Origin: Hydrogenovibrio thermophilus
Lineage (GTDB): Bacteria > Pseudomonadota > Gammaproteobacteria > Thiomicrospirales > Thiomicrospiraceae
Direction: 5' to 3'
Length of the DNA: 64,000 nt
NCBI RefSeq assembly: GCF_004028275.1
Contig: NZ_CP035033.1
Coordinates: forward strand, 558,001-622,000
Under the pieces are notes generated by a model that worked only from the letters and a program-made list of their open reading frames with translations, was not told the DNA's origin and did no database searches. Positions 24,531 through 37,614 of the stretch are shown piece by piece. How positions within the stretch are numbered: position 1 is the first letter of the stretch; the number at the start of each line of letters is the position of its first letter. The position numbers and the translations under genes were made by a program.

Positions 24531-27095
24531 ATGATGGATAAGTTTACATCTCAGTTCCAGTCTGTTCTGGGGCAGGCACAATCCATGGCGCTCGGTCTGG
24601 GGAATCAGTTTATTGAACCGCTACATATTCTATCGGCACTGCTGGCCGAGCAGGCGTCTTTGTTGCAGCTGGCCGGTGTGGATGTGACGAAGCTTAAAAC
24701 GTCCGTAGATGAAAAACTGCCAGGCCTGCCGAAAGTGTCCGGACACGGTGGCGATGTGCAATTGTCGCAAAACAGCGGACGTCTGCTCAATTTAATGAAT
24801 CAAATCGCACAACAAAAAGGCGATGCCTATATTGCCAGTGAATTATTTTATTTAGCCGCTTTGCAGTCCAACGACTCGATTAAGGATTTGCTGAAGCAGG
24901 CCGGTGCCACGGAACAGAATATCGAAGCGGCCATTGACCAAGTAAGAGGAGGCGAAACCGTGCAGGACCCGAATGCGGAAGAAAACAGACAAGCGTTGGA
25001 TAAGTACACTTTGGATTTAACCGAGCGTGCGCGTAGCGGTAAGCTGGACCCGGTCATCGGTCGTGATGACGAGATTCGCCGTGCCGTTCAGGTGTTGCAG
25101 CGCCGTACCAAAAACAATCCGGTGTTGATCGGGGAGCCGGGTGTCGGTAAAACCGCCATCGTGGAAGGCTTGGCACAACGGATTGTGAACGGTGAAGTCC
25201 CGGAAGGTCTGAAAAACAAAAAACTGCTGTCGTTGGACTTGGCCGGTTTGCTGGCGGGTGCCAAATATCGCGGTGAGTTCGAAGAACGCCTGAAAGCTTT
25301 GTTGAAGGATCTGGAAAAACAGGAAGGCTCCGTCATTCTGTTTATCGACGAAATCCATACCATGGTCGGCGCCGGGAAAACCGAAGGGTCGATGGACGCC
25401 GGAAACATGTTGAAACCGGCGTTGGCCCGTGGGGAATTACACTGTATCGGCGCCACCACCTTGGACGAATACCGTGAAAATATCGAAAAAGACGCCGCGT
25501 TGGAACGTCGTTTCCAAAAAGTGATTGTGGACGAACCGAGCGAAGAAGACACCATTGCGATTCTGCGTGGTCTGAAAGAGCGTTACGAAGTGCACCACGG
25601 TGTGGCGATTACTGACCCGGCGATTATCGCCGCGGCGCATTTGTCGCAACGTTACATCACCGATCGACAACTGCCGGATAAAGCCATCGACTTGATTGAT
25701 GAAGCCGCGTCGCGCATCCGTATGGAAATCGACTCCAAGCCGGAAGAGATGGATAAACTTGACCGTCGCTTGATTCAGTTGAAAATCGAGCGTGAAGCTC
25801 TGAAAAAGGAAAAAGATGACGCGTCTAAAAAACGCTTGACTGTCTTGCAGGAATCCATCGACGAGATGGAAAAAGAATACGCCGATCTCGAAGAAATCTG
25901 GAAAAAAGACAAGGCTGCCTTGCAAGGGGCCAAGCAGTATAAAGAAGAACTTGATAAAGCCCGTATCGAAATGGACGCGGCGCACCGTGAAGGGAACCTG
26001 GGCCGCATGTCCGAGTTGCAATACGGCGTGATTCCGGATTTGGAAGCCAAAATCAAAGCGGCGGAAGAAGCGGAAAACGAAGCGGAAGGTCAAGTGCATT
26101 TATTGCGCAATAAGGTCACGGAGGAAGAAATTGCCGAAGTGGTGGCGCGTTGGACCGGTATTCCGATTTCCAGAATGCTGGAAGGCGAGCGCGATAAGTT
26201 GCTGCGCATGGAAGAAGCGCTGGGCGCGAAAGTCATCGGGCAGCAGGAAGCCGTGTCGGCCGTGTCGGATGCGATTCGTCGTTCCCGCGCCGGTTTGTCG
26301 GATCCGAACCGTCCGAACGGTTCTTTCCTGTTCCTTGGGCCGACCGGGGTCGGGAAAACCGAGTTGACCAAAGCCTTGGCCGATTTCCTGTTCGACACCC
26401 AAGACGCCATTGTGCGTTTGGACATGTCGGAGTTTATGGAGAAGCATTCCGTGGCCCGCTTGATTGGGGCGCCTCCGGGGTATGTCGGTTATGAACAGGG
26501 CGGTTATCTGACTGAAGCGGTGCGCCGTAAACCGTATTCGGTGATTTTGCTGGATGAGGTGGAAAAAGCGCACCCGGATGTGTTCAATATCCTGCTGCAA
26601 GTGCTGGACGACGGTCGTTTGACCGATGGGCAAGGGCGTACGGTGGACTTCAAAAATACGGTGATTGTGATGACGTCCAACCTAGGGTCGCATATCATTC
26701 AGGAAAAAGCCGCCACCGCGACTTACGATGAAATGAAGCAGGATGTCATGGAAGTGGTCGGCAGCCATTTCCGTCCGGAATTCATTAACCGGATTGATGA
26801 CATTGTCGTGTTCCACCCATTGGATCAGGCACAAATTCGTGCGATTGCCGATATTCAGTTGAATCATCTGCGTGCGCGTTTGGCGGACAACGATTTGCAA
26901 TTGGAAATCGCTGGCAGTGTGCTGGATAAAATCGGCGAAGCCGGTTTCGATCCGGTCTATGGGGCGCGACCTTTGAAACGTGCGGTGCAACAATTGGTGG
27001 AAAACCCGTTGGCGCAACGTTTGTTGAAAGGGGAGTTCGCTGCGGGTGACACCGTTCATGTCGGATTGACGGATGGTGAAATCGACTTTCATTAA
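24531..27095 (+). CDS. clpB: ClpB disaggregase
   Basis: An 854-residue Hsp100 chaperone that rescues aggregated proteins with DnaK. It has the N-terminal Clp repeat domain, nucleotide-binding domain 1 (Walker A '[13 protein letters not shown]', Walker B '[15 protein letters not shown]'), the long coiled-coil middle domain (about 410-520) and domain 2 (Walker A 'GPTGVGKTE', pore loop 'GYVGYEQGG', '[14 protein letters not shown]'). The start at 24531 follows an AAGGAG site; a longer frame from 24483 lacks support. A sigma-32-type promoter lies upstream. CAGGCCTG encodes 'PGLP' near residue 65. Confidence 0.97.
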
Positions 27096-27158
27096 TCGAA
27101 CCCCGACACGAGTGAGCCGATGGGTGCCTTGTTGATGTGAGGAAGGCATCTTATGTGA

Positions 27159-27191
27159 CCGCCGGAAAAGAATTTTTCCGGCGGTTTTTTT
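27159..27191 (+). terminator. Strong rho-independent terminator of clpB
   Basis: The perfect stem CCGCCGGAAAA/TTTTCCGGCGG is followed by seven T. Confidence 0.9.
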
Positions 27192-27208
27192 ATGTCCGAA
27201 TTTCCCTG

Positions 27209-27233
27209 AAAACCGCCAGGCCTGGCGGTTTTT
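27209..27233. terminator. Second, CAGGCCTG-type terminator after clpB
   Basis: The hairpin AAAACCGCCAGGCCTGGCGG ends in TTTTT, 18 bp after the first terminator. The tandem arrangement insulates clpB from the Fur-controlled gene. Confidence 0.8.
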
Positions 27234-27324
27234 GAGTATTTTGAAGCCATTCGTTTGCATGGCCTTTGGCGGCTGATATGAATGACAAACGTGATTAAAT
27301 TGACTTTTAGCGCGCAATAAATAA

Positions 27325-27343
27325 AATGATAATTGTTATCATT
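27325..27343. promoter_or_regulatory. Fur box
   Basis: AATGATAATTGTTATCATT is a perfect 19-bp palindrome and close to the canonical Fur consensus. It lies 22 bp before the ATG of the Cys-rich small protein. Confidence 0.85.
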
Positions 27344-27364
27344 AACTTTTTTGGGAGTGAGACG

Positions 27365-27637
27365 ATGAACCGAACCGTTGAGCCAAATGCACGGGTCTCC
27401 ATCGACTTGGATTGGGACAAATTATTGGAATTGATGCAGAGTGGTGCCTTGTGTGGTGCGGACATTCATGTGTCCGACCGGGAGTCCAAGGCGTTGATTC
27501 AGCAAGCTTGTTTGAAAAGTTGTGCGCAGAAAGTCTGTGCCGGGTGCGACATGAGTGACCTGTGTGGCGTGGGGGCCTGTCCTTCAGGTCATTCTGTTTC
27601 TGAACAGGTCGTGACCACGCACCCTTTTAATCTTTAA
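27365..27637 (+). CDS. Fur-controlled 90-residue cysteine-rich protein, unknown function
   Basis: A small protein with seven Cys (30, 49, 53, 58, 61, 67, 72), four of them in a Cx3Cx4Cx2C arrangement that could bind an Fe-S cluster or metal. I do not recognise the family; it is not an obvious bacterioferritin-associated ferredoxin. The start at 27365 follows GGGAGTGAG; an upstream in-frame ATG at 27326 lies inside the Fur box and is rejected. The palindromic Fur box strongly suggests induction by iron limitation. The 3' end overlaps the convergent yeeE-like gene by 11 bp. A role in iron scavenging or Fe-S assembly is only a guess. Confidence 0.7.
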   Translation: MNRTVEPNARVSIDLDWDKLLELMQSGALCGADIHVSDRESKALIQQACLKSCAQKVCAGCDMSDLCGVGACPSGHSVSEQVVTTHPFNL

Positions 27638-28784
27638 ACAATCTCGGTTTAAGGTAAATGCCTGCGCTGTTGCCGGCCAAGGCCGCCAAAGCCCAGAGCC
27701 AGCCGTGTAAACTGCCGGAACCAATGCCGCTGAAAAAAGCACCGATATTGCAACCGAACGCGATAACGGACCCGTACCCCATAATAAACCCGCCGACAAT
27801 TGCCATCAGATGCGGTTTGAGCGTGAACTGGGTCGCTTCTTGACGAGCCGAGCGCGCCAGTAAGGTGACCAGCAATGCGCCACTAATCAACCCCAGCGTG
27901 GTCAGACTGACGGTGTCTTCCAACAACGGCGCTTCCTGGCGGCTGAAATGGGTGATGCCGTAAGACCAGAACGACCAGTCCAGTGGCAATTGCAGTGCGT
28001 CACTGATTTTCAAACCCCAGTAAGGAAACACATTGGCAATCGACCAAGGTTGGCCGCTGAGGATGAGTAAAAACGCATTCAGCAGCGCCAGCACCAAACC
28101 TGCTTTCAGCCAAGGATGCCAATCGGTGATTTTCCAAAAAGCCGAGGTATTGAGACGTGACAGTTCGTCAAAATGATTCTTTTCCTTTAAGATTGCCAGC
28201 CAGTACAACACACCGATAAAGCCCAGTTGCAATACCAAGCCTTGTATTAAACCGAAGGACTGTAGCATTGAAACCGGTTGCAGTGCCGGTACGGCGCGCC
28301 AGAATTCACTGTGGTAAGCGGCCAGCGTGCCGCCGATCAACAGAAAGAAAAAACTGGTCAGGGATAACGGCTGTAACTGTCCCATTTTGTTGAAGGTGCC
28401 GGAAGTGCAGCCGTTGGCCAGCTGCATGCCGATACCGAATAGGAAGGCACCGGCGACGACGGAAAGGCTTAATGGTTGCACGAATCCCTGTAACGCCAGC
28501 CCGTTAAATTCCCCCAGGCTCAAGAGCAGAAAAAACAACACACTGGTGAACGCCAGCATCCATAATACGGCGCGAACGCCGAGGGTGCGGCCTTGTGTTA
28601 ACAGTTGATGGGAGCAGGTGCGGAAACCGAATTGGAAATAGTTTAAGCTGGCACCCAGCAGGGCGCCAACCAGGAATAAAGATAAGTGGTTTTCCGATAA
28701 CCAGAGGCTGACCGCCAGCAAAGGCAGCAATAACCACCAGACGGCAGCTTTGGGTAATGGCGTGAGGGCAAGTGTGCGTAGCAT
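27627..28784 (-). CDS. YeeE/YedE-family sulfur transporter
   Basis: A 385-residue polytopic protein of the YeeE/YedE (DUF395) family, thought to import thiosulfate or move sulfur across the membrane. The family's Cys-containing glycine-rich loops are present in both halves: 'GIGMQLANGCTSGTFNKMG' and 'GYGSVIAFGCNIGAFFSGIGSG'. About ten hydrophobic segments are visible. Because the host is probably a sulfur oxidiser, thiosulfate handling is plausible. A TATAAT box lies in the leader at about 28816-28821. The 3' end overlaps the convergent Cys-rich gene. Confidence 0.88.
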   Translation of the reverse strand: MLRTLALTPLPKAAVWWLLLPLLAVSLWLSENHLSLFLVGALLGASLNYFQFGFRTCSHQLLTQGRTLGVRAVLWMLAFTSVLFFLLLSLGEFNGLALQGFVQPLSLSVVAGAFLFGIGMQLANGCTSGTFNKMGQLQPLSLTSFFFLLIGGTLAAYHSEFWRAVPALQPVSMLQSFGLIQGLVLQLGFIGVLYWLAILKEKNHFDELSRLNTSAFWKITDWHPWLKAGLVLALLNAFLLILSGQPWSIANVFPYWGLKISDALQLPLDWSFWSYGITHFSRQEAPLLEDTVSLTTLGLISGALLVTLLARSARQEATQFTLKPHLMAIVGGFIMGYGSVIAFGCNIGAFFSGIGSGSLHGWLWALAALAGNSAGIYLKPRLFKD

Positions 28785-29048: not shown

Positions 29049-29705
29049 TTAATCAGCCGTTGCGCGTACAACGGCTTGTTCGGCCGCGTCCAGATTGTCG
29101 ACACTGATGTCCAGGTTCTTCAAGCGCCCGTCTTTGATGTTGTAGATAAAACCGTGCACCGCGAGGGACTGGCCTTTTTTCCAGGCTTTCCGTACCGCCG
29201 GAACATGGCAGATATTACGCACCTGCTCCGCGACATTGATTTCACACAAACGATTGACGCGTTCTTCATAAGGCAATGCATCCAGCTCGGTTTGCTTGCG
29301 TTGGTAGTATTTTCGAATCGGACGTACCCAATGGTCAATCAAGCTGGGGTTGCCTTCTTCCATTGAGGCGATCACTCCGCCACAGCCGTAATGGCCATTG
29401 ACGATAATGTGTTTGACCTTCAGGATTTCGACGGCGTATTGGATGACCGACAGCACATTCATGTCGCTGGAGTTCACCAGATTGGCGATGTTGCGGTGTA
29501 CGAAAATCGTGCCTGGGTCCATTTTGACCAGTTGGTTGGCGGGCACGCGGCTATCGGAGCAGCCAATCCACAAATATTCGGGTTTTTGTTGGTGGGAGAG
29601 GGTTTCGAAGAAGTGGGGGCGCTCGGCATTCACTTCGTCCACCCATTCTACGTTGTTTTGTAACAGTTGTTCAATCGGGCTGTTACAGTCGCATTTGTCG
29701 CACAT
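29049..29705 (-). CDS. Beta-class carbonic anhydrase
   Basis: A 218-residue zinc enzyme interconverting CO2 and bicarbonate. The zinc ligands and catalytic dyad are intact: Cys49 and Asp51 in 'CSDSRVP', His105 and Cys108 in 'HYGCGG'. 'PGTIFVHRNIANLV' and 'AVHGFIYNIKDG' are typical of the Can-type branch. The ATG at 29705 is chosen for its AAGGAT site; an in-frame start 15 codons earlier has none. Its place next to the CO2-fixation locus suggests it supplies inorganic carbon for growth. The N-terminal CDKCDC is unusual but has no known role. Confidence 0.95.
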   Translation of the reverse strand: MCDKCDCNSPIEQLLQNNVEWVDEVNAERPHFFETLSHQQKPEYLWIGCSDSRVPANQLVKMDPGTIFVHRNIANLVNSSDMNVLSVIQYAVEILKVKHIIVNGHYGCGGVIASMEEGNPSLIDHWVRPIRKYYQRKQTELDALPYEERVNRLCEINVAEQVRNICHVPAVRKAWKKGQSLAVHGFIYNIKDGRLKNLDISVDNLDAAEQAVVRATAD

Positions 29706-29826
29706 AATTATCCTTTTGGAGAAGTTTTGGTCGTGGTTAAGACAATACAAGCTTCTTCAAAAGATGGAATTATACCGATAATATCCAGTAACGGATAAAA
29801 ACTGATCTGAATTTATCGCGGGAAAG

Positions 29827-30258
29827 TCAAAACCAAGGATGGTTAATTGGCGGGGTGGCTTTCGGTTGTTGTGATTTTCCTAATCGATAAGCGGCTTTCA
29901 ATGCTTTAGCTGTTTTATCATTCCAGTTAAGCTGATGCTTTTGGGCGATGTCCTGTAAATACGCATCCGATCCAATTTGTTGATAGCGTTCAAGAAACGC
30001 TTCAACCGGCATGGGTAATACTATTTCAGCGGCATCAATACGAGAATCGAAATGAATGACTTCGATTTCACTCGATTCCAGCATCTCAAATTTATAAGAG
30101 ATGACGTCCAGTTGATTCTGTTGGGCGATTCGACTGGGGAGCTGTTGTAAAAACAGGTCGATATCATCAATATAAGGGGGTAAATCGACATCTGATTCAT
30201 AGCAAAAGGTTTCGCCCCGAAAATCAAACGTCGAACGCACTTTCATGGTTGACTTCAT
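29827..30258 (-). CDS. Unknown protein at the end of the cbbM-cbbQ-cbbO module
   Basis: A 143-residue soluble protein with no recognised domain. It is 18 bp downstream of the first cbbO on the same strand, so it is probably co-transcribed. The N-terminus ('KVRSTFDFRGETFCYESDVDL') looks like beta structure, the middle is acidic, and the C-terminus is helical and basic with a final 'PINHPWF'. A start at 30246 (second Met) is equally possible. A different unknown gene sits in the same place after the second cbbO. Involvement in RuBisCO activation is inferred from position only. Confidence 0.6.
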   Translation of the reverse strand: MKSTMKVRSTFDFRGETFCYESDVDLPPYIDDIDLFLQQLPSRIAQQNQLDVISYKFEMLESSEIEVIHFDSRIDAAEIVLPMPVEAFLERYQQIGSDAYLQDIAQKHQLNWNDKTAKALKAAYRLGKSQQPKATPPINHPWF

Positions 30259-30276
30259 AGAAATTTCCTAGAGCCT

Positions 30277-32541
30277 TTAGTTTGTCAGCTTCATAAAGAC
30301 TTGCGGCAATTGCTCCGGCAATTTATCCACATGGTCTATCACCGTATATTGATTGCCGAAGATATCCGAGACATATTCATCTGCGTTCGGGTCAAGTGTG
30401 ATGCAGTAGGAATAAATGCCTTGCCCCTGCAATTCTTCGACCGCCTTATGGGTATCCTGAATCAATGTTTGCGGGTCTTTTGAATCAATGTCCGCCGGTT
30501 CCCCATCGGTTAACACCAGCATTAACTTTTTCTCCGCTTTTTGCGCTTCAAGATAATGTGCGGCATGACGCATGGCCGCGCCCATTCGGGTCGAAAAGGA
30601 CGCTTCCAATCCGGCAATCCGTGCTTTCACCTCATCGTTATAACCTTCCGAATAACCTTTAATGTGCTGATAGCGCACTTCATGGCGGGTGTCGGAACAG
30701 AAACCGGCAATTGCAAATTTATCGCCTAACTGCTCAACGGTCCAGGCGGTAATCGCCAAAGCTTCCTCGGAAAGTTCCAACAACGTCTGGCCCGTTTCCG
30801 GATTACGTTCATTCAACGATTGAGAGGTATCCACCAAAAGCATGACCGCAATGTTGCGACTGTCGGTGGTGTGGCTGTAGTTGATACGTGGATCGGGGGC
30901 GGACCCGCTTTTGAAATCGATGATGGAACGAATCGCCACGTCCAGATCCAACTCTTCGCCTTCTTCCTGAAAACGAATACGCTTTTTGTTCTGTGGCTTA
31001 AGCATTTCAATCATCTTTTTCAGACGATTGGCCAAGTCACTGTGTTTTTCCATTAAGCGATCGATTTTACTGGCTTGTCCGGATGGATGCAGACGCTCGT
31101 AAACGGTGGTCCAATCTGGCCGATAGCCTTCGGAGATATAATCCCATTCATCGTAATGACGTGGCGGTAGCCCACCTTCATTGTCGATTTTCGGCTCTTC
31201 GTTCTCATACTCGTTCGGCATGATTTCGTCTGACTCATCATACTCTTCGTAGTAGAACCAGATATAACGGTTATCGTCGCGGTAAGACACTTCGGTATCA
31301 TCAAAGAATACCGTTGGTTGGCTGTCCGAAGACTGCTTACGAGTTTTGACATAGAAGTCGATACCCAAATCGGCCATATCCGCAGTGGTCGACTCTTCAC
31401 CTTTTTCAGCCATGATTGTATGAAAGCGCTCACGGAAACTTTCCAACAATTCATTCTGAGGGTCAAAGTCCTCATCCAACAAGGCGCGAGACATACGCGT
31501 TGCACGATAGCGCAGACACGACATTTTCTGATCGTCACAGGCACCTTTTTCAGGGTAAGGGTGCAAGGATAAGAACAATTTTTTCAGACCTGGATAACGT
31601 TGAATCGCCAGGTGTTCAACACGACAGTCTTCAAATATCGAGATAAACAATTGCATATGGGGCGCATAGTTATCCGCCATCAGCTGTCCGGACCATTTTT
31701 TATGTGCCATCATATGTGCCACCGTGGCTCGATAGCGGTCGGTACCCGACACGCCATTTTCTGCGTCATAAACATCCGGTACCGCAATGATGTCGTCATC
31801 CAGATAAGGCACCGGCTTGCGCAATTGGTCAAAAGCCGTTGCAAAGGTTTGGAAAGGCAAATCGCAGTCCCACATGCACTCTTTCAACATGTCCATATGA
31901 CGTTCAACGTCTTTGAACGTGGTGCCTTTGCGCTCGCGGGTGATAATGCTTTTGGCGTCATGCGACTCCAATTTAAAGTAAGCAATCTGTTCTTCCGGTG
32001 CATTCAGGTAATTGCGCGCCCCATAATCGATGAAGTTACGGATACCGTTGAGACACAGTTTGGAAATCAGTTGTGGCATGGACTCTAACAGAGCAACCAT
32101 TCCCGGGCTCTCATACAAAGAGTGATGACCGTGGATAACCGTCTGCGTCTTTTCGACATATTCATCGATAATTTGCAGATACAGCTCTAAATCTTCAGTT
32201 CGGTCAATGCGTCGGCAAACATGGCCAAGCGTTGATAAAAACGGAATCAAGGCTTTTTTGTTGGGGCTTCGTGCCAGCAGATAGCTGTAATTGGCAATCA
32301 TTTTATTGGTGCCTTGACCAAAGTGAGAGGCGATGTCCGGCATCACTTCCATAAACACCAATACCGGTTCAACGCCTTGGCCGATTTTACAAAGGAAGTT
32401 CGCTCCTTCTAAATAGGCCTCGACCCCTTGTGGCGATAATTTCGACACGGCATCGTTTAATAAATCGGGGAACAGCTCGACCGCTTTCGGAAATTTACAG
32501 GTAAATTTGTCCTGATATTCAGCAAATAATTCTTCATTCAT
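30277..32541 (-). CDS. cbbO: CbbO, RuBisCO activase component with VWA domain (form II module)
   Basis: A 754-residue protein of the CbbO/NorD-like family. The C-terminal von Willebrand A domain has an intact MIDAS, 'LLVDTSQS' near residue 568 and 'LVLTDGEPADID' further on. The long N-terminal part is helical and acidic in the middle. CbbO docks on RuBisCO and works with the CbbQ AAA+ ring to remove inhibitory sugar phosphates. It follows cbbQ after a 167-bp gap filled by a long hairpin element. Its partner RuBisCO should be the form II enzyme encoded upstream. Confidence 0.92.
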   Translation of the reverse strand: MNEELFAEYQDKFTCKFPKAVELFPDLLNDAVSKLSPQGVEAYLEGANFLCKIGQGVEPVLVFMEVMPDIASHFGQGTNKMIANYSYLLARSPNKKALIPFLSTLGHVCRRIDRTEDLELYLQIIDEYVEKTQTVIHGHHSLYESPGMVALLESMPQLISKLCLNGIRNFIDYGARNYLNAPEEQIAYFKLESHDAKSIITRERKGTTFKDVERHMDMLKECMWDCDLPFQTFATAFDQLRKPVPYLDDDIIAVPDVYDAENGVSGTDRYRATVAHMMAHKKWSGQLMADNYAPHMQLFISIFEDCRVEHLAIQRYPGLKKLFLSLHPYPEKGACDDQKMSCLRYRATRMSRALLDEDFDPQNELLESFRERFHTIMAEKGEESTTADMADLGIDFYVKTRKQSSDSQPTVFFDDTEVSYRDDNRYIWFYYEEYDESDEIMPNEYENEEPKIDNEGGLPPRHYDEWDYISEGYRPDWTTVYERLHPSGQASKIDRLMEKHSDLANRLKKMIEMLKPQNKKRIRFQEEGEELDLDVAIRSIIDFKSGSAPDPRINYSHTTDSRNIAVMLLVDTSQSLNERNPETGQTLLELSEEALAITAWTVEQLGDKFAIAGFCSDTRHEVRYQHIKGYSEGYNDEVKARIAGLEASFSTRMGAAMRHAAHYLEAQKAEKKLMLVLTDGEPADIDSKDPQTLIQDTHKAVEELQGQGIYSYCITLDPNADEYVSDIFGNQYTVIDHVDKLPEQLPQVFMKLTN

Positions 32542-32587
32542 ACATAAACATCTCGTTCAGTTGAAAGTATCTCTTCTAAAAAGAGAA

Positions 32588-32709
32588 ATCATAAGTTTGG
32601 TTCGCCGAATTTTCGTGCTGAGCAAGGCGAGAATAAGGGAGTGTATAAGTTATACACGACCGTTTCTAACGAAGCGCAGCGCGAAAATTCGGATGAAACA
32701 ATTTATGAT
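32588..32709. repeat. Long imperfect-hairpin element between cbbQ and cbbO
   Basis: Ends of about 28 bases pair with few mismatches: 32588 onward (ATCATAAGTTTGG...CCGAATTTTCG) against the inverted copy ending at 32709. The tip has its own palindrome, GTGTATAAGTTATACAC. The right end reaches the cbbQ stop codon. It could attenuate transcription or protect the upstream mRNA. Its general plan matches the elements at 39571 and 45781. Confidence 0.6.
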
Positions 32710-33509
32710 TAGCCGAAAATCATTTCAATTGCGTTATCCAGCGTTTGGCGAATGTCTGCATCATCGGTAATCGGGCGCACCAACGCCATTTTACACGCTT
32801 CGACAGGGGTAATGCCTTGGTTGATCAGGGTGGCGGCATAGACCATCAAACGGGTAGAAATCCCTTCGTCCAGACCATGACCTTTCAGGTTGCGCGCTGT
32901 TTCACCGATTTGAACCAGCTTCTTCGCGGTGGCCTCGTCAACGCCACCTTCTTTTTGCAGAATGTGTGCTTCGACGTCTGGCGCGGCATAATCAAAGTCC
33001 ATGGCACAGAAACGTTGTTTGGTGGATTGTTTCAGGTCTTTCATCAAGGATTGATAACCCGGGTTGTAGGAAATGACCAATTGGAAATCCGGGTGGGCTT
33101 TAATCAGCTCGCCTTTTTTATCCAAAGACAGTTCACGGCGGTGGTCGGTCAAGGCATGGATTACAACCATGGTATCTTGACGGGCTTCGACAATTTCATC
33201 CAGATAGCAGATGGCGCCGTAGCGTGCGGCCATGGTGAGTGGGCCATCGACCCAGCGAGTGCCTTCGGCGTCTAACAGGTAACGACCGACTAAGTCCGCC
33301 GCGGTAATGTCTTCGTTACAGGAAACGGTAATAATCGGTTTCCCCAGTTTCCAGGCCATGTGCTCAACAAAGCGAGATTTACCACAGCCGGTTGGGCCTT
33401 TGACCATGACTGGCAAGCGCGCTGCATAAGCGGCTTCGTAAAGTTCAATCTCATTCGATTGTGCATCGTAAAAAGGTTCGTTGTCGATTTTGTACTGTGA
33501 AATATCCAT
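32709..33509 (-). CDS. cbbQ: CbbQ, MoxR-type AAA+ RuBisCO activase (form II module)
   Basis: A 266-residue AAA+ ATPase of the MoxR/NirQ/CbbQ group. It shows Walker A '[10 protein letters not shown]', 'SCNEDITAADLVGRYLL', Walker B-like 'AICYLDEIVEARQDT', sensor 1 '[10 protein letters not shown]' and the Arg-finger segment 'KQSTKQRF'. CbbQ hexamers couple ATP hydrolysis to RuBisCO reactivation through CbbO. The start at 33509 follows GGGGAA and matches the family; an upstream in-frame ATG at 33584 would run into the repeat element. It is paralogous to the cbbQ at 40169. Confidence 0.95.
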   Translation of the reverse strand: MDISQYKIDNEPFYDAQSNEIELYEAAYAARLPVMVKGPTGCGKSRFVEHMAWKLGKPIITVSCNEDITAADLVGRYLLDAEGTRWVDGPLTMAARYGAICYLDEIVEARQDTMVVIHALTDHRRELSLDKKGELIKAHPDFQLVISYNPGYQSLMKDLKQSTKQRFCAMDFDYAAPDVEAHILQKEGGVDEATAKKLVQIGETARNLKGHGLDEGISTRLMVYAATLINQGITPVEACKMALVRPITDDADIRQTLDNAIEMIFG

Positions 33510-33541
33510 CTGAGTTCCCCGAAAACTTTGATTGATAATAA

Positions 33542-33718
33542 GAGAGCTTTGCACCCAAAGGGTATAAACACGAGATGGATTCACGGCTAAAAATGGCTAA
33601 AATTTTCCTGAATGTCGTTGAAAAACTCGTTAATAGCTAGCTATTAACTTCGTTTTCCGCCTAATTCAGAAAAGTTTTATCTCATTTTTTCCTCGCGTCC
33701 CACTCGTGCAAAACTCTC
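33542..33718. repeat. MITE-like hairpin element, copy 1, upstream of cbbQ (form II)
   Basis: A 177-bp element bounded by GAGAGCTTTGCA and its near-inverse TGCAAAACTCTC. It folds along its whole length: CTGAAT/ATTCAG, GAAAAAC/GTTTTC, and a tip GTTAATAGC/GCTATTAAC. It ends 32 bp before the cbbQ ATG. A second copy at 39975-40134 lies in the same orientation 34 bp before the other cbbQ. No coding frame is present. Confidence 0.75.
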
Positions 33719-33745
33719 AATAAAAAAGAAGTTATTTGAGCTTGA

Positions 33746-33771
33746 TAAACCACCAGGCCTGGTGGTTTTTA
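33746..33771. terminator. CAGGCCTG-type terminator between cbbM and cbbQ
   Basis: The hairpin AAACCACCAGGCCTGGTGG ends in TTTTT. With A and T flanks it can act on either strand; on the cbb strand it would reduce read-through from cbbM to cbbQ. Confidence 0.75.
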
Positions 33772-33861
33772 AGCGAATTTAAGTGTTGATAAAATCATTT
33801 TGGTTTAATGTCTATGAAAGCAAAACGCTAAACGAAAAGGATTTGAATTTGAGTGATTGGG

Positions 33862-33894
33862 TAAAAAAACCTCAGCCTAAAGCTGAGGTTTTTA
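33862..33894 (-). terminator. Rho-independent terminator of cbbM
   Basis: The stem ACCTCAGC/GCTGAGGT with a short loop is followed on the minus strand by seven T, about 70 bp after the cbbM stop. Confidence 0.88.
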
Positions 33895-33964
33895 AGTATC
33901 CATTCAAATTGATGGGTAAAGTGGCTTGAGGCACGATGTGTACCTCAAGCGGCTTTAACATCAA

Positions 33965-35365
33965 TTACTTGTGGACACCCAATTTTTCTCTCCAGCCTGG
34001 GAAGATTTTGTCTGCATCGCTTGGGAAAGATTCGAATGCACGAGCAAATTCTGGGTGCTCTTTAGCGTATTCGATTGGGTCTGCACCCGTTTTCCAGCAC
34101 TCGTATGCTTGACCCAGTGACGTACCACCAGCAGCAGGAGAATCGATGTGACCGAAGGAACCACCACCACAAGTGTTGATGACGTTACCGTGACCTAGGT
34201 TTTCGAAGAAACCAGGTAGACGTAGTGCGTTCATACCACCAGAGATGATTGGTGTAGTTGGCTTCATACCGTACCACTTCTGATAGAAGTAGTGACCTTG
34301 ACACTCGTCACGCTCAAGCATGTAAGCCAGTACGCGCTCATCACCGTGACCTTCCATTTTACCGTAACCCATCGTACCAGTGTGGATACCAGAAGCACCC
34401 ATTAGGCGAGCTAACTTCATGTAGCATAGTGGATCCATACCCATAGGTGACTTATAAGAAGTCAAGGCACCGTGACCAGCGCGGTGGAAGTGTAGGTATG
34501 TATCTGGGAAGTTACGACGAGCCGTGGTGACACCTGCTGGACCGGTTACGAAACCGTCAACTAGGAAAGCAACGTGTTTTTCGTTACCGTATTTAGCGAA
34601 TTCACCTAGGATGTATTCACCACGCTTGATCATTTCTTCGTGGAAGTCAGCTGTTACGTTTGCAGAGAAAAGCTTCGCTTCACCTGTTTCTTGCTGTGCA
34701 CGATCCATTGTCTCTGCAACCATTGGAATAACCGTTTCCATTGGGCAGAAAGGTTGGTTAGCTTGTGGCTCATCGTTTTTGATGAAGTCACCACCCAACC
34801 AGAAGTCATAACACGCCTTAGCGAATGGTTCAGGACGTAGACCTAGTTTAGGCTTGATGATCGTACCCGCGATGTAACCACCGTCAACTTCCGGACGGCC
34901 TAGTACTTTCCATAGGTCGGAAATGTCAGTGGCTGGGCCGTCGAATTTCTTAACCATTTGCTCTGGCACCAAGAAGTCCAACATACGAAGACCTTCGTGG
35001 TCACCCATACCTTGGTTGTTCCCTAGGATCAAAGACCACATGTGAGATACATTGTAGTGACCATCGATTAGGTTTGGATCGAATAGATCGACTGGGTAAG
35101 CGATCTTCATCAGACCACCTTTGTCACCAAACGCCGCTTCGTCAACTTCATATACTAGAGCGTCAACACCACGAGTGAAGTCATCAGTAGTAGAGACTTC
35201 AACGTTAGTACCGGTTGAAGACTCAGCAGCAACGTGAGCAGCAACTTCTAGGAAACCATAACCAGCGGCAGGTTTTAGACGGTATGCAACGAGAAGGTGA
35301 TTGCCATCAGCAATCAATTTTTCTTCAGATAGAGTTAAGTCAGCGTAACGATTCGACTGATCCAT
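33965..35365 (-). CDS. cbbM: Form II ribulose-1,5-bisphosphate carboxylase/oxygenase
   Basis: A 466-residue single-subunit RuBisCO that fixes CO2 in the Calvin cycle. Active-site residues are visible: Lys171 in 'TIIKPKLGL', the carbamylated Lys196 in '[11 protein letters not shown]', 'HFHRAGHGA' and the flexible loop 6 '[10 protein letters not shown]'. Length and sequence are typical of proteobacterial CbbM. Codons are strongly biased (GGT, CGT, ATC), unlike neighbouring genes, which fits high expression. An AAGAGG ribosome site precedes the ATG. A LysR-type regulator is encoded on the same strand upstream. Form II usually serves at high CO2 and low O2. Confidence 0.98.
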
Positions 35366-36616: not shown

Positions 36617-37543
36617 TTAACGGGTGTCGGACATGACCAGTAGTTTATTGATGTCCACGGATTTCAGGAAGTCCAAAAACGCCACGGCCGGTGGCATCAG
36701 AACCTTATCTTGCATCTTGGCGATGTACCAATCTCGGCTGAGCGGGAAGCCTTGCACATCTAAGACTGTTAAATGACCGTATTTGGCTTCAATGCGAACC
36801 GCATGGCGCGGAATGACGGAAATGCCCAGGCCTGCCATGACGCCCTGTTTGATCGATTCGGTGCTGCCCAGTTCCATATAGGGTTGAATCACATAATTCT
36901 CTTGTGCCAAGCGCTCTTCCAATGCAATGCGAATGCCGGAACCGCTTTCGCGCATCAGGAATTTTTCGTTGACGATTTCGCTTAATGGAATTTGCTTGTG
37001 TTTTGCCAGCGGATGGTTGGGCGGGGCCACCATGACCAGTTCGTTTTTGAAGAACGGGAAGGCTTCCATTTTCAATTCCGCCGGAACACGCCCCATGACC
37101 GTTAAATGGTATTGGTTCTGTTTCAGTTCGTCCAAAATCCGGCGTCGATTGACGACGGTGATGGATGGCGTGACGTCCGGATATTTATTCAAAAACGCTT
37201 TTAGCACATAAGGGATGAAATACTTGGCCGGGGTGACAACCGCCAGCTTGAGTTCACCTTCTATGCTGTCTTGTTCATTACGAATGTAAGCCGTGAGATC
37301 CTTCAGTTCGCCCAGTATGTTGGTGCAGGTTTTGAACATGTGTTCGCCGGCAGATGTCAGGTAAAGTTTTTTGCCGATGACCTCGATGAGTTTGACATCG
37401 TTGTTTTCTTCCAAGCGTTTAACCTGTACCGAAACGGCCGGCTGTGACAAGTTGAGTTCTTCAGCCGCTTTGGTATAGCTTAAATGCCGGGAAACCGCTT
37501 CGAAAATTCGGATTTGTTGGGCGGTGATATGGAGATTATGCAT
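36617..37543 (-). CDS. cbbR: CbbR-type LysR regulator divergent from cbbL
   Basis: A 308-residue LysR-family regulator, divergent from cbbLS by 222 bp, the classic position for cbbR. The DNA-binding helices are 'RIFEAVSRHLSYTKAAEELN' and 'LSQPAVSVQVKRLEE'; the effector domain has 'KFLMRESGSGIRIALEE'. The start at 37543 gives the family's normal N-terminus; an in-frame ATG at 37600 would add 19 unusual residues. It is paralogous to the preceding regulator, so each RuBisCO module appears to have its own. A CAGGCCTG lies in its 3' half (GMAGLGISV). Confidence 0.93.
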   Translation of the reverse strand: MHNLHITAQQIRIFEAVSRHLSYTKAAEELNLSQPAVSVQVKRLEENNDVKLIEVIGKKLYLTSAGEHMFKTCTNILGELKDLTAYIRNEQDSIEGELKLAVVTPAKYFIPYVLKAFLNKYPDVTPSITVVNRRRILDELKQNQYHLTVMGRVPAELKMEAFPFFKNELVMVAPPNHPLAKHKQIPLSEIVNEKFLMRESGSGIRIALEERLAQENYVIQPYMELGSTESIKQGVMAGLGISVIPRHAVRIEAKYGHLTVLDVQGFPLSRDWYIAKMQDKVLMPPAVAFLDFLKSVDINKLLVMSDTR

Positions 37544-37614
37544 TTTATTTCTCGGAAGGTGAAAAAATAAGCTATTGAAAGAAAAGGATTTTTTGTTCAA
37601 TCATAACCCTTTGT

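Follow-up and report, generated by a model that had tools for sequence, protein, structure and literature searches.

A predicted Fur-regulated, cysteine-rich small protein of Hydrogenovibrio thermophilus and its distant relationship to the PA4570 family

The stretch of the Hydrogenovibrio thermophilus genome analysed here (64,000 nucleotides, positions 558,001 to 622,000 of contig NZ_CP035033.1, hereafter the window) contains at 27365-27637 (+) a gene for a protein of 90 residues, P0001, with cysteines at positions 30, 49, 53, 58, 61, 67 and 72. The translation agrees with an earlier note, made from the sequence alone, which described 90 residues with a Cx3Cx4Cx2C cluster and three more cysteines. 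The gene lies downstream of clpB (end at 27095; Pfam AAA_2 and ClpB_D2-small), with two terminator-like hairpins between them (27157-27234, +), and its stop end overlaps by 11 bases that of a convergent YeeE/YedE sulfur-transport gene (27627-28784, -; PF04143). Because of the terminator-like hairpins upstream and the convergent gene behind, the P0001 gene probably stands alone. A YeeE/YedE gene is the convergent neighbour in eight loci of the organism's own family, but it is on the opposite strand and the arrangement is local, and a link between the two genes was rejected. Further along the window, a carbon-fixation cluster on the minus strand (29049-35365) encodes a carbonic anhydrase, a VWA protein, a CbbQ-type AAA protein and the RuBisCO large chain, and is accompanied by the gene for a LysR regulator at 36617-37600.

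Upstream of the P0001 gene there is a sigma70-type promoter-like site, TTGACT-16-TAAAAT (27300-27327, +), which has 10 of the 12 consensus bases and is unique within 27090-27700 (shuffled sequences gave a mean of 0.4). Its -10 element is overlapped by a Fur box, AATGATAA-TTG-TTATCATT (27325-27343), and a ribosome-binding-site-like GGGAG, read from the sequence, follows at 27353-27357 (+), 7 nt 5' of the ATG. The earlier description of a perfect palindrome 22 bp before the gene holds for the 8-bp arms, which are exact reverse complements, but not for the 3-base spacer, which is asymmetric, and the distance from the end of the box to the ATG at 27365 is 21 bp. A Fur box that overlaps the -10 element has the classical geometry of Fur repression. 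In a plus-strand scan of the window against a 19-mer Fur consensus, 27325-27343 scores best, with 15/19 in two registers. The pattern GATAATNATTATC with one mismatch has a single site in the window, the same box, and with up to three mismatches it has 35 sites versus 20 expected. In the whole 2.61-Mb genome, which has two Fur-superfamily matches, the only exact match to the 8-3-8 pattern AATGATAANNNTTATCATT is the P0001 box; allowing two mismatches raises the count to six sites, and a reversed control pattern then has none.

The five other sites were assessed by their contexts; the ferritin, the TonB receptor at the first site listed, the copper protein and the DUF2325-like protein were put through Pfam, and the other names are given by eye. 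One site lies between a gene group that contains a ferritin gene and a TonB receptor gene with heme-uptake-like genes behind it, another precedes a TonB-receptor-like gene, a third lies between ECF-sigma-like and TonB-receptor-like genes, a fourth precedes a plastocyanin-family (copper-protein) gene with a DUF2325-like gene behind, and the fifth is beside genes without an evident iron link. Because of these surroundings, the pattern can be said to pick mostly genes of the Fur-controlled kind, and the P0001 gene is a probable further member of the Fur regulon. The DUF2325-like gene (L188:16513-17001; G000:C1:295512-296000) is the single one of this genome and scores below the Pfam cut-off; it lies downstream of the copper-protein gene and of a one-mismatch Fur-type site at 296791.

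The open reading frame behaves as a real gene under purifying selection: its nearest relative is 89% identical, dN/dS against that relative is about 0.11 (dN 0.061, dS 0.546), and matches at E <= 0.01 occur in 35 of the 62 genomes of its family, with its own genome counted. The protein had been said to belong to no known family, which is right as far as Pfam is concerned (no family at E <= 5) and does not extend to NCBIfam. PHROGs also has no match for P0001, and one relative weakly matches a PHROGs family of unknown function (E 0.0027). In NCBIfam there is one weak match, to NF050178, the PA4570 family (16.1 bits, E 0.01, model positions 26-66), which is below the curated cut-off of 100 bits. 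At E <= 0.1, 17 of the 25 members of the P0001 alignment (A1) match this model and eight do not (best E 0.00087), as do four of six other relatives (best 2e-5), the remaining two being without a match. Profile comparison by hhalign with twelve PA4570-type ORFs gave an E-value of 1.4e-7 (94% probability) for A1 and 2.1e-9 (96% probability) for a broader alignment (A2), each E-value being that of a single pairwise comparison. PA4570 is represented here by these ORFs, and its nearest stand-in, L142, is the one ORF above the cut-off. The PA4570-type ORFs begin with a segment of the YLIDAWLDRxxPxLRILDxxTG type (alignment A6), corresponding to model positions 1-25, which P0001 does not have; its alignment starts at model position 26, and the PA4570 core of model positions 26-69 is present in it by profile comparison. 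In P0001 the shared core covers residues 9-50 (27389-27514, +) according to the alignments, hhalign and AlphaFold2, and is predicted to be helical. Homology of P0001 with PA4570 is, by these profile comparisons, very probable, and on the same footing P0001 is a distant PA4570 homologue that lies outside the curated NF050178 family. The C-terminal core, the Fur box and small size are common to both. Unlike the PA4570-type ORFs, P0001 lacks the N-terminal segment and has a five-cysteine site that was not seen, by eye, in any of the twelve.

PA4570 is a protein of Pseudomonas aeruginosa whose gene responds strongly to iron in published data. One paper has it induced by iron starvation and gives it a canonical Fur site (PMC13277308), and a table of biofilm genes down-regulated by HodC, a setting where iron availability rises, gives it a value of -22.1 and a Fur box (PMC5145850). 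It appears at 19.36 in an expression table from a study of growth on airway mucus, in which another gene was singled out after mutant tests (PMC4597187), and shares a metal-restriction gene set with sodM (PMC10473638). The papers found assign no function to PA4570, and a literature search that covered few subscription journals returned no functional study explaining the P0001/PA4570 family.

Of 369 genomes sampled from the class, the A1 profile matches 22, the broader profile 26 and NF050178 32, one of them above the cut-off; some of the NF050178 matches do not extend beyond model positions 1-36 and could be due to chance. Because the same gene is matched by both profiles in seven genomes, the union of the last two counts is 51/369. 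A phylum-wide sample gave matches at E <= 1e-5 in 17 of 398 genomes, all of which, besides the own one, are labelled as the same class. A scan of named genomes yielded 29 loci, in Thiomicrospira, Shewanella, Psychromonas, Methylomicrobium/Methylotuvimicrobium, a Granulosicoccaceae strain and other gammaproteobacterial MAGs, with one MAG labelled Desulfobacteraceae and one Syntrophobacteraceae; the pattern used to find them requires LCAAD and the following Cys, and these residues are invariant in alignments A4 and A5 by construction. The superfamily appears to be found mainly in gammaproteobacteria.

Fur-like sites recur upstream of the relatives. A site that scores at least 13/19 is present at 53 of 73 relatives versus 43 of 423 neighbouring genes in the same loci, and one that scores at least 15/19 at 15 of 73 versus 6 of 423; the loci are related, which means that the p value of 4e-21 overstates independence, the controls include some iron genes, and start codons were chosen by rule. 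The 73 relatives are the 81 loci minus six contig repeats, the near-identical L081 and one with a short upstream region, the window gene being excluded. By shuffling, 31 of the 73 upstream regions are individually at or below 0.05. The PA4570-type ORFs have a site of at least 13 in six of twelve cases, counted with no control set. Such a site is absent at 20 of the 73 relatives. Six relatives without it (L083, L087, L127, L128, L130 and L136) have a DUF2325 gene ahead of them. Of the seven DUF2325 genes on the same strand as the relative, four (L081, L127, L128 and L136) are themselves preceded by a site of at least 13. The tight iron control proposed in the earlier note is therefore well supported: the site lies over the promoter, the genome has no second exact copy of it, and similar sites recur in the relatives. 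The predicted control of the P0001 gene by Fur seems almost certain.

The cysteines tell a more lineage-specific story. The 25-sequence alignment has six invariant columns, C49, L50, C53, C58, C61 and C67. The cysteine site of P0001 runs from C49 to C67 (27509-27565, +) with the spacing C-x3-C-x4-C-x2-C-x5-C. Among 34 other own-family loci (the window and G002, a weak match, are omitted), 32 have the motif C-x3-C-x4-C-x2-C-x4/5-C, versus none of 45 loci outside the family, four contig repeats among them. Of the two exceptions, L106 has a broken frame and L119 is without the second cysteine. Because L119 lacks only that one, C49, C58, C61 and C67 form what appears to be the most constant set, and four such residues would suffice for one [4Fe-4S] or Zn site. 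Since the five-cysteine motif is nearly fixed in the window's family, its putative site there quite likely binds a metal. Many relatives have His or another residue in place of C30. Outside the own family the number of cysteines in 40 relatives ranges from 1 to 11, six of them having only one or two, and all six carry a Fur-like site of at least 13/19; the twelve PA4570-type ORFs have 1 to 7. The five-cysteine site looks like a feature of the window's lineage. Relatives with few cysteines keep the core and Fur-like sites, and therefore the activity common to the superfamily cannot need a four-cysteine cluster.

These counts bear on the ferredoxin-like or Fe-S delivery role that had been proposed for the protein. 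As a common role it does not agree with the few-cysteine relatives or with the lack of any ferredoxin or Bfd family match; the part of the proposal that is plausible is a metal site, Fe-S or Zn, in the own family. P0001 as a small ferredoxin-like Fe-S electron carrier for low iron would replace or serve another carrier, or would, like Bfd, feed the release of iron from ferritin. The five near-fixed cysteines fit such a carrier, and C-x2-C-x5-C plus an upstream cysteine is a spacing seen in [4Fe-4S] proteins. Bfd (PF04324) is small and cysteine-rich, as is P0001, it is iron-controlled in known cases, and four relatives (G104, G124, G205 and G404) are at loci with both BFD-type and ferritin-family genes. 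Against these likenesses, P0001 (E up to 5) and the 25 aligned members (E up to 0.1) are without a match to Fer2_BFD PF04324, the cysteine pattern is different, and BFD-type domains coexist with the relatives in all 34 genomes searched, 31 of which have one in a frame of at most 131 residues; many of the matches are in long frames of about 800 to 1,300 residues, and among the short ones identity as Bfd was examined for that of L133 only. Replacement of Bfd, an idea prompted by the ferritin-family genes near some relatives, was set aside with BFD-type domains in every one of these genomes. G217, G271 and G355 (3/34) have such domains only in long frames, and in G271 and G355 a ferritin-family gene is beside the relative, which counts in favour of a carrier. 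No ferredoxin model in Pfam matches P0001, and the four weak families among the 25 members include no ferredoxin. Some relatives that share the core and carry Fur-like sites do not have enough cysteines for a carrier, and a cluster protein would be costly to make under iron starvation. An electron carrier of this kind is thus considered unlikely. The spacing C30-x27-C58-x2-C61-x5-C67 resembles the C-xn-C-x2-C-x5-C of WhiB proteins. Unlike these [4Fe-4S] proteins of actinobacteria, a distant phylum, P0001 does not match the WhiB model in Pfam and its C30 is not kept in many relatives, and the likeness is regarded as chance.

The predicted structure is small and helical. AlphaFold2 gave a weak helical model for P0001 with a mean pLDDT of 69.4 (29 sequences), with block means of 82-85 over residues 11-50, and a small helical model for a Psychromonas relative with 74.4. 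Foldseek on the predicted models returned no match below E 2.5, and VIA-align on the structure models reached a Z of 3.1 at most; none of these structural matches is convincing, and no fold is assigned. Sequence profiles also matched designed armadillo proteins in the PDB with E down to 1.1e-7, matches that were dismissed as helical-repeat artefacts, none of the stretches passing on its own. A conserved, small, predicted-helical core without evident catalytic residues would suit a Zn-binding or thiol-based regulatory adaptor acting on RNA, a sigma factor or a protein, with the cysteine site as structural Zn, and gammaproteobacteria often answer low iron with small regulators. P0001 matches no regulator family, however, the CsrA model in Pfam included, and a zinc anti-sigma chain is among the Foldseek matches only at E 7.6. 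PA4570 itself had been proposed to be RsmA/RsmN-like, and in the passage that reports its overexpression such action was absent (PMC4950607). A regulatory adaptor is possible, with doubts of some weight.

Some of the relatives have iron-storage genes nearby. A ferritin-family gene lies within 6 kb of the relative in 12 of 39 genomes, a count that leaves out G118 with its 3.7-kb contig. In the own family it is nearby in 5 of 21 genomes and absent in 16; the five belong to the genus of the Thiomicrospira records, and one form seen there has a TonB receptor gene and then ferritin behind the relative's gene. Outside the own family it is nearby in 7 of 18, versus 0.16 expected under uniform placement (P 8e-11), and absent in 11; in L077 it is directly 3' of the relative. 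No ferritin-family gene was seen in the Shewanella, Psychromonas and Methylotuvimicrobium loci inspected, and the window gene, flanked by clpB and the convergent YeeE/YedE gene, has no iron-storage, DUF2325 or TonB-receptor neighbour. TonB-receptor genes recur in 16 loci (two Pfam-tested in all), and FeoB-like genes, named by eye, in three.

A second recurrent neighbour is a DUF2325-type protein of about 400 to 520 residues, whose members form one sequence cluster and are found near the relative in eight loci (L083:2623-3867, L128:4662-5906, L130, L136, L127, L087, L081 and L125); the two tested with Pfam have DUF2325 at the C-terminus. The gene is upstream on the same strand in seven of the eight and divergent in one, the frames touching or overlapping in six and lying about 0.9 kb apart in one. 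Outside the own family, five of the six genomes with DUF2325 have the gene within about 1.5 kb of the relative and the sixth has it on another contig (P 2e-13, uniform placement). The DUF2325 protein is a possible functional partner of the relatives. A short DUF2325 protein of Campylobacter, Cj1384, is described in one paper's account as PerR-regulated and as having seven cysteines (PMC9426514).

Other neighbours were considered and given less weight or none. A rimO-like gene (Fe-S methylthiotransferase, named by eye) is next downstream on the same strand in 17 loci (L105, L107-L113 and L115-L123), with gaps of 65-141 nt; the link was rejected as local synteny, and the six gaps inspected contain promoter-like sequence, which suggests that the two genes are transcribed separately. 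An ABC-transporter binding protein beside some relatives (L121), at first taken by eye for an iron binder, was likewise dropped as such: its Pfam matches are limited to SBP_bac_6 and related families, and its best NCBIfam matches, none of which reaches the cut-off, are to binders of phosphonate and thiamine. Upstream of the relative in L091, L093, L094, L111, L117 and L118 there is a divergent group with DUF6662 and FMN-binding protein genes (Pfam, one member each) and, by eye, ApbE-like genes, which may be an iron-linked flavin or reductase system. In the Shewanella loci L064, L065, L072 and L073, around 3.8-4.3 kb in each, the gene and a response-regulator-like gene are transcribed away from each other, and a ccoN-like gene lies beyond (named by eye); in S. 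oneidensis we take this neighbour to be SO_2366. One paper gives that response regulator a Fur-motif weight of 14.1, the highest among the entries viewed, and no expression value (PMC12442407). The motif could be that of the small gene transcribed in the other direction.

The same neighbourhoods weigh on the last alternative, in which P0001 is a fast-evolving stress protein whose cysteines scavenge metal or oxidants and which has no specific partner. Differing cysteine-rich tails do recur among the relatives, as if cysteine content outweighed placement. The strict cysteine spacing in the own family, the dN/dS of 0.11 and the recurrent ferritin-family and DUF2325 links of the relatives are all against it, making a partnerless scavenger most improbable.

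On balance, the reading we incline to is that P0001 is a Fur-repressed iron-economy accessory with a lineage-specific, probably metal-binding tail, and a divergent branch of the PA4570 superfamily. From the gene, its Fur-type site, the homology, the conserved cysteines and the neighbourhoods of the relatives, all of which can be read in the sequences, we infer derepression of the gene and, with less assurance, metal binding and a partner. P0001 would be a small iron-starvation protein, probably cytosolic. When iron is present, Fur would occupy the box over the -10 element and shut the promoter, and as iron falls the gene would be derepressed, as expected from the site and from what is established about Fur. 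The protein would keep the C-terminal core, predicted to be helical, and the site formed by C49, C53, C58, C61 and C67 would most likely bind [4Fe-4S] or Zn. P0001 would most likely contact a partner in iron economy, with the iron stores, that is ferritin or bacterioferritin and the release of iron from them, as the leading candidate, and in the window's lineage the cysteine tail would add metal or redox sensing. A direct role at the iron store lies somewhere between improbable and possible. The more specific model, in which the superfamily is a Fur-controlled adaptor that docks at iron starvation on ferritin, bacterioferritin or their partners (Bfd, the DUF2325 protein), promoting release or blocking loading, and in which the Fe-S or Zn tail of the window's family senses iron or redox state, is tentative and rather improbable as it stands.

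For the family as a whole, PA4570 would be one branch of a superfamily that occurs in up to about one in seven of the sampled gammaproteobacterial genomes, and that appears tied to Fur and, in part of these genomes, to ferritin-family, DUF2325 and TonB-receptor genes. This turns PA4570, an orphan of a well-studied bacterium, into a testable question, and the cysteine-rich branch to which P0001 belongs may make a bound metal easier to see.
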